Source: an uncultured Methylococcaceae bacterium (lineage in GTDB: Bacteria > Pseudomonadota > Gammaproteobacteria > Methylococcales > Methylococcaceae). From it: 36,732 nt of DNA. The notes under the pieces were generated by a model. It was not told the origin of the DNA. It was given only the letters and a program-made list of their open reading frames with translations, and ran no database searches. How positions within the stretch are numbered: the first letter of the stretch is position 1; the number at the start of each line of letters is the position of its first letter. Positions 1 to 36,732 of the stretch are shown piece after piece. Both the position numbers and the translations under genes were made by a program. The stretch covers positions 1 through 36,732 of the forward strand of contig CAIZPP010000210.1 of NCBI GenBank assembly GCA_903934875.1, written 5' to 3'.

Positions 1-93
1 CGGCGACTCGTCGCCGCTGGACGCAAAAGGCGGCGACGAGTCGCCGCACTCCACACCATCCGGGCTACAGCCTACACGGTTGCGTAACATCAG
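1..93 (-). mobile_element. Family A MITE-like element, cut by the window start
   Basis: The core is two perfect inverted 16-base arms, CGGCGACTCGTCGCCG and its complement, around a 14-base spacer; each arm is itself a near-palindrome. The outer end TGCGTAACATCAG at 81-93 is the complement of the 13-bp terminal repeat that borders the complete copy at 18966-19103. The other end lies outside the window. The last 36 bases or so of the core are also found in inverted orientation at the far end of the window. No coding capacity is visible, so any movement would depend on a transposase in trans (inference). Confidence 0.85.
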
Positions 94-224
94 TTAAGAT
101 AAAACGCTGTATATAGAAACCGTTCATGGCTTCGCAAGCTCAGCCCATCCTACATCACATAGATATTTTTACAGTGATATGGGAGTAATGCATAATACAG
201 CATTTCCTTCTTCAAAGAGCCTTT

Positions 225-3946: not shown

Positions 3947-3967
3947 GAAGACGGGCGGCGCGGCGGC

Positions 3968-4079
3968 ACCTGTGCGGTTATCGGCAAAGAATTGCCGACC
4001 TTCGGCGATTCTCGTTTTGGAGTGTCAATGCTTGCCTTGACAGGCAAAGCGAACTTTGCCATTCCATGCGCAACATCAG
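3968..4079 (-). mobile_element. Decayed family A-type element (subtype of 31160-31287)
   Basis: On the minus strand the right-hand end reads CTGATGTTGCGCA (4067-4079), one base from the family A terminal repeat. The interior shares long blocks with the complement of the element at 31160-31287 (TTTTGGAGTGTCAA, GCTTGCCTTGACAGGCAAAGC, GTTATCGGCAAAG). The left end has lost its terminal repeat, so its boundary is approximate. The intact end stops three bases from the stop codon of the SCO1 gene. Confidence 0.75.
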
Positions 4080-7771: not shown

Positions 7772-7895
7772 TACAGCGTTTTCATCTTTAAAATATACCT
7801 AAATAATGGATATTCAGTTAACGCTTCAAGTAAACTGAATGACCTGCCCTTACATACCAGCTATCAAGTAACTATTTGATGTTGAAAACGCTGTA
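7772..7895 (+). mobile_element. Family B MITE-like element, complete, 124 bp
   Basis: The ends TACAGCGTTTTCATC and GATGTTGAAAACGCTGTA are imperfect inverted repeats. The interior carries the family hallmarks: TTTAAAATATACCT near the left end and ATCAAGTAAC near the right. The outer TA on each side may be a duplicated TA target, as in IS630/mariner-type elements (inference). It sits between paralogs A and B of the small secreted family. Confidence 0.85.
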
Positions 7896-18965: not shown

Positions 18966-19103
18966 CTGATGTTACGCAGTCATCGCTAGAGGATGGCAAC
19001 TTGTGGAGTGCGGCGACTCGTCGCCGCTGGACGCAAAAGGCGGCGACGAGTCGCCGAAATCCACAACATCCGGGCTACAGCCAACACGGTTGCGTAACAT
19101 CAG
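18966..19103 (+). mobile_element. Family A MITE-like element, complete, 138 bp
   Basis: The perfect 13-bp terminal inverted repeats CTGATGTTACGCA / TGCGTAACATCAG are bordered by the direct repeat TTATTAA on both sides (18959-18965 and 19104-19110), a clear 7-bp target duplication. The core is the double palindrome CGGCGACTCGTCGCCG and its complement. There is no reading frame of useful length, so the element must be non-autonomous. Confidence 0.93.
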
Positions 19104-19286: not shown

Positions 19287-20255
19287 TCATCTACCCGGAA
19301 AGTGAAATCCAGAGCTTTGTATGGCCTGTTGCATTTGTATTTGATGGATTTGATTCTGTACGGCTTGCTGTCGCTGTTGCTGCTGCTGTTCTTGCTCCTC
19401 TTCGTGCTTTTTTTGCTCTTGTTTCTTTTGCGCAACCTCGTATTCGACTTTGCGAACATTGGACTCTACTTGGTAATTTGTCTCTTGCACTTTATGCGCA
19501 ATTCCGCTCGCATATTCGTTTTGCCGCTGCTGTTGCTGGTAATTATTTTGCATTTCTGCGATAGCGTTTTTCGTCGACTCGATTTGGATTTGGTGAGTTA
19601 GTATCTCCGTCCTGGCTTTTTGCTGCTCTGCGGCCTGGATATTTTGCTGTTGTTGCTGGTAATTATTTTGCATTTGCTGCTGATTGCGCAGATATTCCTG
19701 TTGCCTTTCCTCGTTAATTTGCTTGGCCGCATTCCCACCAGTTTGACGGGTGCTGGCTTGCGATTGGCCTGTCAGTATGATTGCATTCCCACCAGCTTGA
19801 CGGGTGCTGGCTTGCGATTGGCCTGTCAATATGATTGCATTCCCATTAGTTTGGCCGGTACTGGATTGCGTTTGGGCTTCATTCGGTTTGACCACCTGCC
19901 CTTTGGTTTGGCGGGTACTGGCCTGCGTTTGGCTTTCAACCGGTTTATGGTTTGTTTGTGTTTCAGCTTGATGTTTAGATTGTTGGGCACTGTGCGATAA
20001 AACCAGTTTATACTTCTCACTACTTGGGATTTTATGCTGCTTGCCATATTCGTTGTGTGCTGAGGCTTTTGCTGAAGAACCACCTCCTATATAGGGACCC
20101 GATAAATAACCAACCGATGAATATTGATAATCATCGTCATCTTCATAATATGCATTTTGACCCTGCATGGCCGCTTCATTAGGGAAAAAAAATGAGCAAC
20201 CAGCAATCAAAAATACAAAGCTTAATACTGTGCAAATTTCCAGCGACTTGTCCAT
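19287..20255 (-). CDS. Gln-rich coiled-coil lipoprotein with tandem repeats
   Basis: The 322-residue product has a lipobox (LIAGC, Cys20), so it is probably membrane-anchored. An acidic/Tyr-rich piece (YYEDDDDYQY) follows, then a Ser/Gln linker. Residues about 108-178 are four 18-19 residue repeats of the type QSQASTRQxGGNAIILTG. The C-terminal 140 residues are extremely Gln-rich coiled coil (QNNYQQQQQ, KKQEQKKHEEEQEQQQQQ). This gives an extended envelope or surface protein; no family was recognised. The repeats match a 54-bp DNA repeat. Repeat number and Gln-runs may vary between strains. Confidence 0.8.
   Translation of the reverse strand: MDKSLEICTVLSFVFLIAGCSFFFPNEAAMQGQNAYYEDDDDYQYSSVGYLSGPYIGGGSSAKASAHNEYGKQHKIPSSEKYKLVLSHSAQQSKHQAETQTNHKPVESQTQASTRQTKGQVVKPNEAQTQSSTGQTNGNAIILTGQSQASTRQAGGNAIILTGQSQASTRQTGGNAAKQINEERQQEYLRNQQQMQNNYQQQQQNIQAAEQQKARTEILTHQIQIESTKNAIAEMQNNYQQQQRQNEYASGIAHKVQETNYQVESNVRKVEYEVAQKKQEQKKHEEEQEQQQQQRQQAVQNQIHQIQMQQAIQSSGFHFPGR
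19729..19890. repeat. 54-bp minisatellite inside the Gln-rich lipoprotein gene
   Basis: The units at 19729-19782 and 19783-19836 differ by only about two bases. A third, more diverged unit lies at 19837-19890 and a weaker fourth up to about 19944. Each unit starts GCATTCCCA and keeps frame (18 codons). The near identity of the first two units points to a recent duplication. Confidence 0.88.
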
Positions 20256-25143: not shown

Positions 25144-25205
25144 ACTCTTACAGCGTTTTTAATAGCGAAGATTCACAGCATTTTCAACATCAAAGAGTTA
25201 CTTGA

Positions 25206-25327
25206 TACAGCATTTTCAACATCAAAGAGTTACTTTGTAGTGGGTATGATAGCGCAGGTTATTCGGCTAACCTGAAGGGTTAAAGGAATGTCTGTTTTAG
25301 GTATATTATTAAGATGAAAATGCTGTA
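25206..25327 (-). mobile_element. Family B MITE-like element, complete, with a duplicated end
   Basis: It has TACAGCATTTTCAACATC at the left and GATGAAAATGCTGTA at the right, opposite in orientation to the copy at 7772-7895. Directly left of it, at about 25172-25205, the first 30 bases of the same end occur again (CAGCATTTTCAACATCAAAG). This suggests a second insertion or slippage at the end. The interior is more diverged than in other copies. Confidence 0.82.
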
Positions 25328-30697: not shown

Positions 30698-31042
30698 ATG
30701 GAACAGAAACAGCCTCGTAAGCCAAGGCAAGTCCAGCTACCCTGCATCCTTGAAGCTTCAGGCTGCGGATTTTTGAATGGCCGCACACGCGAACTGTCGG
30801 AGCAAGAAGTGTCTTTGCAATGCCCTGGCCTTGTTTACCCAGGCGCACGGAAACCCAAAGTCGGCACGTCCGGCATACTAACCTTTGAGTTTATCCTATT
30901 CGGAAATCCACGGGAAATGCTGCGCATGCCCTGCCGTATCAAGTATGTGATCTCCAGCACCGTGGGGGTGCAGATCAACCTCCAGTCGCTGAATCTGCAT
31001 CAGCAGCATTGCTTTACCGACTTGTTGGACGCAAAAAAGTGA
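30698..31042 (+). CDS. PilZ-like domain protein
   Basis: The 114-residue product starts with a basic RKPRQVQLPC, similar to the RxxxR loop that opens PilZ domains. Then follow short strands: LNGRTRELSEQEVSLQCPG where a D/NxSxxG motif is expected, GILTFEFILFGNPREMLRMPCRIKYVISSTVGVQINL for the rest of the barrel. The D/NxSxxG motif is not conserved, so c-di-GMP binding is doubtful. The overall plan still fits PilZ better than anything else I know. It lies 7 bp after the kinase-fusion gene and probably is co-transcribed. No signal peptide or membrane segment is present. Confidence 0.7.
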   Translation: MEQKQPRKPRQVQLPCILEASGCGFLNGRTRELSEQEVSLQCPGLVYPGARKPKVGTSGILTFEFILFGNPREMLRMPCRIKYVISSTVGVQINLQSLNLHQQHCFTDLLDAKK

Positions 31043-31137
31043 ATTGCCGAGGAAAGCGGTTTCACCCAGCAATTCTCATTTTGAACAGAACCTGGCGGGG
31101 TTCGCCGAAAGTCAATCTGAAAATTTGGTAATATATG

Positions 31138-31395
31138 TACAGAATTTTCATCTTTAAAACTGACGTTACGCATTGGAGTGGCAAAGCCCGCTTTGCCTGT
31201 CAAGGCAAGCCTTGACACTCCAAAACGAACGCTGTAAGTCGGCAACCCTTTGCCGATAACAGCACAGTGGTCTGTGCGTAGCGTCAGTTTAAAATATACC
31301 TAGTAAAGGATATTCAGCTAACGTTTCAAGTTAACTGAATAACTTGCCCTTTCATTCCAGCTATCAAGTAACTCTATGATGTTGAAAACGCTGTA
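31138..31395 (+). mobile_element. Family B element interrupted by a family A element
   Basis: The outer ends are TACAGAATTTTCATC (31138) and GATGTTGAAAACGCTGTA (to 31395). Without the 128-bp insert and the 7-bp duplication the element is 123 bp and matches the copies at 7772 and 14256. Its right end lies 7 bp from the start codon of the permease gene. Confidence 0.92.
31160..31287 (+). mobile_element. Family A-type element, 128 bp, nested inside a family B element
   Basis: The terminal repeats CTGACGTTACGCA and TGCGTAGCGTCAG match in 12 of 13 bases. The target duplication is TTTAAAA (31153-31159 and 31288-31294). The interior has inverted GCAAAGCCCGCTTTGC and CAAGGCAAGCCTTG blocks and differs from the CGGCGAC core of the copy at 18966; it matches the decayed copy at 3968-4079. 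Confidence 0.93.
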
Positions 31396-31402
31396 AAACA
31401 CC

Positions 31403-32788
31403 ATGCAAACACACACAGGACATCTCCAGCGCCGACTTGGCCTTACCAGCGCAATATCCATAACCGTGGGCGCTGTCATCGGCTCGGGAATATTTTTAAA
31501 ACCCCTAGTGATTGCCCAAAACCTACCCTCGGTGCCTTGGATTTTCATGCTTTGGTTCGCACTCGGCATTGTTTGCCTGTGCGGAGCCTTTGCTTATGCC
31601 GAATTGGGGGCTATGTTTCCCGAGGCGGGAGGGCAATATATCTTCCTGCGCGAAGGCTGGGGCGAGGAGGCCGCCTTTCTTTACGGCTGGGTATTCTTTT
31701 GGGGAATCAACAGCGGCACCATGGCGGCCTTGTCCACCGCCTTTGCCGATTATCTATTGCCTCTTTTCCATCTCGACCCGGCACAACGGGAAGCCCATTC
31801 CCTGCTGCCTTCCCTGATTGCGACGCTGATGATATTCTTGCTCGCCCTAGTCAACCATTTTGGCGTGATGTTTGGCGCAGTTTTACAAAACCTGTCCACT
31901 TTTGCGAAACTTGGCGCATTGGCCTTGATCGTCATCGGCGGCTTACTGGTTTCCAACCAAGGCAGTCCGGCTTCACTCACCCCCATTCAAGATTCCGCCC
32001 CAGGCTTGGGGATTGCCGGCGTACTCACCGCCTTCATCGGCATTTTCTGGGCCTATGAAGGCTGGTACCAACTGCCCTTTAATTCCCAAGAATTAAAACG
32101 CCCCGAGCGCAACCTGCCGCTGGGTTTGATAGCGGGCATGTTGATCGTGATTGCCGTTTATATTGCCATCAATGCCATTTATCTGGATTGGGTGCCTTTC
32201 GCTGAAATGCGCGGCCTGCCTAGTGGTGCGAACCAGCAAGTGCCCTATCTCACCGTGGCGAGGATTTTCTCGCCCCAGATTGCCGATTATCTGACCCTGC
32301 TCGTGGCCATTTCCATCCTAGGCGCGGCCAATCCGAACATGCTATCCTCGACGCGGGCTTTCTATGCGATGGGCGAAGATGGCTTGGTCCCCCATGCGTT
32401 GAACTGGGTACATCCTAAATACGGAACACCGACGGTTGCCATTTGGACACAAGCCATTTGGGCCGCGTTCATCGTGCTTTATCTGGAAAAATTCCACGAC
32501 ATCACCGCGTTTGTCGTTTTCGATAGTTTCTTGTTTTATTGCCTGACCGTCGCGGCGGTCTACCGCTTACGCTTTACCCGGCCAGACCATGTCCGGCCTT
32601 ATCGTTGCGGCGGATACCCCATCACCCCTGCCCTGTTCATCTTGGTATCAATCGGCTTTATTACGACTTTGCTGCTGAATCCAGACGAGCGCAGACACGC
32701 ACTGATAGGACTCGCCATATTGGCCGCCGGGATACCCTATTACTATTTGATGCTGCGCAGACGTAGACAAAGCCGCAGGGTGGGCTAG
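31403..32788 (+). CDS. APC-superfamily amino acid permease
   Basis: This 461-residue membrane protein should carry amino acids across the inner membrane by proton or exchange coupling. About twelve hydrophobic segments are visible. The first has the family motif ISITVGAVIGSGIFLKP, which binds the substrate backbone in APC transporters. Also typical are AYAELGAMFPEAGGQYIFLREGWG and FIGIFWAYEGWYQLPFNSQELKRPERNLPLGLI. The general likeness is to the LAT-type (light-chain-like) branch; the substrate cannot be told. The family B element ends 7 bp before the ATG, so promoter and ribosome binding site lie within or next to repeat DNA. It is monocistronic and convergent with the SGNH esterase gene. 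Confidence 0.94.
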   Translation: MQTHTGHLQRRLGLTSAISITVGAVIGSGIFLKPLVIAQNLPSVPWIFMLWFALGIVCLCGAFAYAELGAMFPEAGGQYIFLREGWGEEAAFLYGWVFFWGINSGTMAALSTAFADYLLPLFHLDPAQREAHSLLPSLIATLMIFLLALVNHFGVMFGAVLQNLSTFAKLGALALIVIGGLLVSNQGSPASLTPIQDSAPGLGIAGVLTAFIGIFWAYEGWYQLPFNSQELKRPERNLPLGLIAGMLIVIAVYIAINAIYLDWVPFAEMRGLPSGANQQVPYLTVARIFSPQIADYLTLLVAISILGAANPNMLSSTRAFYAMGEDGLVPHALNWVHPKYGTPTVAIWTQAIWAAFIVLYLEKFHDITAFVVFDSFLFYCLTVAAVYRLRFTRPDHVRPYRCGGYPITPALFILVSIGFITTLLLNPDERRHALIGLAILAAGIPYYYLMLRRRRQSRRVG

Positions 32789-33736: not shown

Positions 33737-33764
33737 CTACAGCTACAGCGTTTTCAATATCAAA

Positions 33765-33886
33765 TACAGCATTTTCAACATCAAAGGGTTACTTGATAGC
33801 TGGAATGAAAGGGCAAGAGATTCAGTTAACTTGAACGTTAGCTGAACATCTTTTATTAGGTATATTTTAAAGATGAAAATGCTGTA
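33765..33886 (-). mobile_element. Family B MITE-like element, complete, 122 bp
   Basis: TACAGCATTTTCAACATC at the left and GATGAAAATGCTGTA at the right, opposite in orientation to the copy at 14256. Two extra copies of the left end lie directly before it, at 33720 and 33744, the nearer one overlapping the start of the SGNH esterase gene. Confidence 0.87.
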
Positions 33887-36349: not shown

Positions 36350-36647
36350 GGCGGTCCAGTGGCGTAAACAATTAAAGATAATAGTGTACGCCATGAAATT
36401 GCGCAGGTGTAGCAATGCGGCAAAGTAAGTAGCTGACTCTATATTTTTTAATTTTTTTGCCGGCAGGAGGTTAAGCCGTTCGTGGTGAGTCCTGAGCTTG
36501 TCGAAGGCTCGGACCATGAACGACTTAACCGTCCACCCGTCGACAAGCTCAGGGCGAACGGTTAAGCCTTGTGCCTGCACCGCCTTAAGTTGATAGCCGA
36601 ATATCCTGCGCTATAATACCTACTATCAGGTAACTCTTTACTGTTAA
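36350..36647. other. Gene-free stretch with a CGTTCG-type palindrome
   Basis: It holds the putative promoter region of the phosphatase gene and, from about 36470 to 36600, paired GGTTAAGCCGTTCG / CGAACGGTTAAGCC blocks with GAGCTTGTCGAAGG inside. The end (CCGCCTTAAGTTG, TAGCC) is shared with the block at 19172-19275. No gene is seen. Confidence 0.55.
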
Positions 36648-36732
36648 CTGATGTTACGCAACCGTGTAGGCTGTAGCCCGGATGTTGTGGAGTGCGGCGA
36701 CTCGTCGCCGCCTTTTGCGTCCAGCGGCGACG
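36648..36732 (+). mobile_element. Family A MITE-like element, cut by the window end
   Basis: It opens with the exact 13-bp terminal repeat CTGATGTTACGCA and runs into the CGGCGACTCGTCGCCG core before the window stops. It is the inverted counterpart of the copy at 1-93, with the same variant bases (GTGTAGGCTGTAGCC). Confidence 0.9.

Follow-up and report, generated by a model that had tools for sequence, protein, structure and literature searches.

Nested MITEs were reportedly described from maize and rice by Jiang and Wessler in 2001. In carrot, MITEs of the DcSto group also form nests in which each element has its own target duplication, and a resident element is proposed there to serve as a tolerated landing place (PMC3695323). 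For the IS701 family, target repeats are reported to be mostly 4-5 bp long, two Geobacillus elements having repeats of 4-9 bp (PMC8024623). The words “nested,” “IS701” and “IS630” do not occur in the main text of a 2024 review of prokaryotic MITEs (PMC10969869), nor do “transpos,” “MITE” or “mobile” occur in the Candidatus Methylumidiphilus paper (PMC8397446). No report of the two families described here, A and B, was found in the literature on MITEs of methanotrophs and cyanobacteria, nested bacterial MITEs, MITEs of IS630 and IS701 type, IS701 duplications or the genus, a search that mostly covered journals other than subscription titles.

The stretch of DNA that was analyzed (the window, 36,732 nucleotides) spans contig G000:C210 from end to end. 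Its genome (5.41 Mb, 344 contigs) is that of an uncultured methanotroph from a lake and falls in the Candidatus Methylumidiphilus group, the genus of Candidatus Methylumidiphilus alinenensis; six congeners, G001-G006, were used for comparison. Within the window a MITE of family A lies inside a MITE of family B, flanked by a perfect 7-bp duplication of TTTAAAA, and the initial annotation, which had recognized this arrangement, was exact to the base. The parts of the nest are:

31138-31395, from TA to TA: MITE B, the split host element
31138-31159, plus strand: left piece of B, starting with the target TA and the TACAG... end
31153-31159, plus strand: left copy of the target duplication TTTAAAA, 7 bp
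31160-31287, plus strand: MITE A, inserted, 128 bp, with a branched hairpin fold (DNA z-score -7.07)
31160-31172, plus strand: left terminal inverted repeat of A, CTGACGTTACGCA, common to an IS701-type element, where it reads CTGATGTTACGCA
31173-31223, plus strand: double-hairpin module GGAGTG...CACTCC within A
31275-31287, minus strand: right terminal inverted repeat of A, CTGACGCTACGCA
31288-31294, plus strand: right copy of the target duplication TTTAAAA, 7 bp
31288-31395, plus strand: right piece of B, ending ...AAAACGCTGTA, its last ~29 bp matching the right end of an IS630-family element

The terminal repeats of the inserted A differ at one position in 13. TTTAAAA stands flush on either flank, perfect at 7 bp and with the eighth base mismatched, and as a target it lies 16-22 bp from the left end of B. 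The nest occupies a 360-base gap between the end of one ORF at 31042 and the start of a permease-like ORF at 31403, the gene name being taken from reading the ORF. The end of B lies about 7-8 bp upstream of the ATG of this gene (31388-31410), so near that the nest has replaced the former leader, whatever its nature. A promoter and terminator scan of 31000-31450 gave no signal above chance, and an Rfam scan of the whole window at gathering scores gave zero matches.

We hold the following history of the locus with great confidence. A 123-bp IS630-type MITE, B, would have inserted first, at a TA upstream of the amino-acid-permease-like gene. Later an IS701-type transposase supplied in trans would have placed a 128-bp IS701-type MITE, A, in the AT-rich word TTTAAAA near the left end of B, duplicating the word. 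That the transposases described below did the moving, that TA was the target of B, and the chemistry involved are what we infer from the sequences.

The order of events at the locus can be read from copies of B that lack the insertion. When A and one TTTAAAA are removed, the excision proposed in the initial annotation, a B of 123 bp is restored that aligns without gaps over 123/123 bases, at 95.1% identity, to four intact copies elsewhere in the genome. The intact copies of the window itself were read directly:

7772-7895, plus strand: intact B copy with one TTTAAAA
14256-14379, plus strand: intact B copy with one TTTAAAA
25206-25327, minus strand: intact B copy with TTAATAA at the homologous site
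33765-33886, minus strand: intact B copy with one TTTAAAA

The initial annotation had reported the word as single in the copies at 7772, 14256 and 33765 and double at the nest, and this is borne out. Two findings that would have spoken for the contrary had also been named there. The first, empty B copies with two TTTAAAA, was seen in 0 of 34 intact copies at loci sampled in the same genome; the second, A as an obligate part of B, is ruled out by free copies of A, such as C189:5723-5850, which is 99.2% identical to the focal A and has its own target duplication, TCATTAA. Both marks of a nested insertion are present, since the duplication is flush and host copies free of an insert have the target word only once, and at this locus B came first and A later. 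A is separately mobile, since its free copies carry 7-8 bp repeats of their own. It had further been proposed that this one place gives the ends, target size and relative age of both families: the ends and the nested insertion stand, the target size stands for the nest and becomes 7 or 8 bp when the whole family is considered, and the order of arrival stands for the focal locus only. Among congeners the permease-like gene alone is conserved and the upstream neighbor has been lost, which prevents the demonstration of an orthologous empty site; the proof lies in the paralogous empty copies of B. At the position of the B junction, TA is found in only two of five congeners.

Family A is abundant beyond the nest. 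Its end consensus, CTGAYGTTACGCA, gives 478 exact ends in the genome and none for the reversed control, and six congeners have from 7 to 193 exact ends each. The elements are short, multi-copy, bounded by terminal inverted repeats and free of a transposase gene, as MITEs are, and the prevailing subtypes among sampled copies measure 127-130 bp and 138 bp. Of the 45 paired elements sampled, 43 lie on contigs C1-C80 and were drawn from the first 100 A-end places listed; the other two are those of C185 and C189. Both flanks were present for 38 of the 45; perfect flush repeats of 7-8 bp were found in 20 (14 of 7 bp and six of 8 bp), repeats with one mismatch in two and no flush repeat in 16, which implies that age, recombination or mis-assembly has affected some copies. 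Fifteen duplications outside B, eight-base and one-mismatch cases being left aside, give an AT-rich target motif, TTAWTAA, after it is made symmetric. Two further copies in the window are relevant here:

18966-19103, plus strand: A-family element of the 138-bp subtype, whose own target duplication is TTATTAA (7 bp)
1-111, minus strand: A copy truncated by the contig start and abutting a B end, a further A/B junction

Several side observations concern the same family. A degenerate copy at about 3952-4079, 84.7% identical over the first 108 bases, adjoins the ends of two ORFs. The GGAGTG...CACTCC double hairpin also occurs in congeners, where by eye seven of ten listed loci (L097, L100-L102 and L105-L107) are without A ends, L104 has a vestige of one, and L098 and L103 have them; in the 138-bp subtype the GGAGTG...CACTCC frame is kept and encloses a different hairpin. 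It looks as if A carried a separate palindromic repeat. Elsewhere in the window, three 54-bp tandem repeats (19729-19890) lie inside a minus-strand ORF (19287-20255).

A candidate driver of A is found in a sister genome. There an intact element of 1,134 bp (G001:C164:1-1134) has CTGATGTTACGCA at both termini, 1-13 and 1122-1134, matching the 13-bp ends of A, and its 351-aa transposase scores 352.9 bits against the NCBIfam IS701 model NF049921 (cut-off 250). The genome under study holds three partial copies of this transposase, two of which start from an A end and continue to the edge of a contig. Intact copies that broke the assembly would leave such remains, and presumably did so here. Judged from these shared ends, an IS701-type transposase likely drives A. 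No autonomous copy complete at both ends and flanked on both sides was seen, from which the duplication of the element itself might have been read. In the genome under study, transposase domains near A or B gave two matches to PF01609 and one to PF13358, and at none of these did ends of A or of B occur as a pair. One apparent 1,173-bp element with A ends (G000:C196, locus L088, 339-1511) was rejected as such: it holds a gene read from its ORF as folP-like between two inverted copies of A, a set that could in principle be moved as a unit.

The same ends bear on whether TTTAAAA might simply be part of longer A ends, the real duplication being a 2-bp TA. The word does include TA, and it resembles a symmetric extension of the ends, with AA before CTGACG and TT after CGTCAG. 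But the IS701-type element stops at CTGATG with other bases beyond, and other free copies of A duplicate in full the unrelated 7-bp words TCATTAA, CATATAA, TGATTTA, CTGTTCA and TGCATAA. We give a TA-only duplication practically no credence, and retain the 7-bp target.

The focal nest is not unique but one of dozens in the genome. At 46 junctions no more than 25 bp separate an A end from a B end, against none for the reversed-pattern control; the count needs an exact end of each family, and so leaves out the focal nest, whose B end reads ACAGAATTTT. Two of six congeners have one such junction each. Both A ends could be parsed at 30 of the 46 junctions and the far end of B at 18, and perfect duplications are present at 18 (a duplication flagged at L111 was discarded as a contig-end artefact). 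The duplicated words match the local allele of B: TTAAAAA, TTAATAA, TTAACTAA, TTTAGAA, TAATTAC, AAAATAA, ATAATAA and TTCTTAA. Because the A subtypes differ among nests and the repeats copy the local allele, the nests are largely independent insertions into the AT-rich target TTAWTAA. No nest of B in A was seen in the sampled loci, which had been selected for their A or B ends.

Two other origins of the nests were weighed against these data. A and B might spread together as one fixed composite MITE, by way of the ends of B, in which case the nest would be no record of A inserting locally. One locus, C212:7274-7533, matches the entire focal nest at 89%, and the commonest left flank, TTAACAAA, recurs in 13 of the 46 junctions, so that nests with this flank could include copies of one event. 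The A copies of the focal nest and of C212 are, however, only 86% identical and of different subtypes, with TTTAAAA duplicated in one and TTAAAAA in the other, and the focal A is nearest to free copies. In many nests the repeats copy alleles private to their host, and one identical 127-bp A occurs in three nests with three different duplications. We consider a composite unit very unlikely. Alternatively, the nests could be chimeras made in assembling repeats within a metagenome bin, a suspicion raised by the 344 contigs, many of which end in A copies. The present contig does so at both ends (1-111 and about 36640-36732, each beside B-like sequence), and A elements evidently break the assembly. 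Yet the focal nest lies in the interior of a 36.7-kb contig, and chimeric joins would not yield flush 7-bp duplications that match the local B allele in many nests, which makes this origin very unlikely indeed. Local insertion of A into a resident B remains our reading of the focal nest.

Why A is found in B so often is a separate matter. On a loose count 19 of the 45 sampled A elements touch B (18 of 43 from C1-C80), compared with 6 of 259 control sites at the same loci, a contrast that is overstated since the control sites take in coding DNA. A strict count, which drops five one-sided matches of 14-19 bp judged by eye, gives 14 of 43. Per base, the density of A targets in B is about 5.4 times the window background, and from the target motif 7-13% of A copies would be expected in B, assuming 600-1,200 B copies and a background taken from the 36,732-nt window only. 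Dozens of nests probably arose because B offers several near-consensus targets (TTAWTAA) in non-coding DNA, and the excess of A in B may come in part from the loss of insertions in genes. A special preference of A for B is possible. We are doubtful of the larger proposal that B is a preferred landing platform beyond its target sequence, a safe haven between MITE families; if true, one bacterial MITE family would shelter another.

Family B is more numerous still, with 1,199 exact TACAGC[AG]TTTT ends in the genome against six for the control, and its copies have TA at either end. The sister genome G001 holds an IS630-family element whose 317-aa transposase scores 176.7 bits against NF033545 (cut-off 100). 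The element ends AAGTAACTGGTTGATATTAAAAATGCTGTA with differing DNA beyond at several loci, and the end of B is nearly identical. At seven loci the right end that stands beside IS630-family genes matches the right end of B, AAGTAACT..TGATATTAAAAAYGCTGTA, over ~29 bp; a left end of the IS630-family element was sought and not found. These matches suggest that the IS630-family element likely drives B. At 25174-25230 and 33744-33790 an end of B is also followed by a second one with the same orientation, at a distance of 21 to about 32 bp, and similar doubling is seen on other contigs.

Taken together, the ends and a likely transposase are now at hand for two abundant MITE families of an uncultured methanotroph genus, with a target size of 7-8 bp for A and a probable TA for B, and with dozens of nests serving as natural replicates, the target choice of one mobile element entering another becomes measurable. 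As transposon biology the nest is clear-cut but of a familiar, ordinary kind; what is mildly new is the rate at which such nests recur and the length, 7-8 bp, of the repeats around an IS701-type MITE. B would be closest to the bacterial MITEs of IS630 or Tc1-mariner type, given TA at both ends, inverted TACAGC[AG]TTTT ends and a right end of ~29 bp in common with the IS630-family element; its origin from the latter through a simple internal deletion is no more than a conjecture, the right end alone being matched. A shares its ends with an intact sister-genome element whose transposase passes the IS701 cut-off (NF049921); unlike that element it encodes nothing and has only the ~13-bp ends in common. 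Its 7-8 bp duplication, against the mostly 4-5 bp of IS701 members, falls at the long end of the reported range (PMC8024623), and we prefer to call A IS701-type by its ends rather than a member of the family by target size. As in DcSto (PMC3695323), the focal locus is a MITE within a MITE, each with its own target duplication; in contrast to the plant nests it is bacterial, spans about 250 bp in total and recurs dozens of times in one 5.4-Mb genome.
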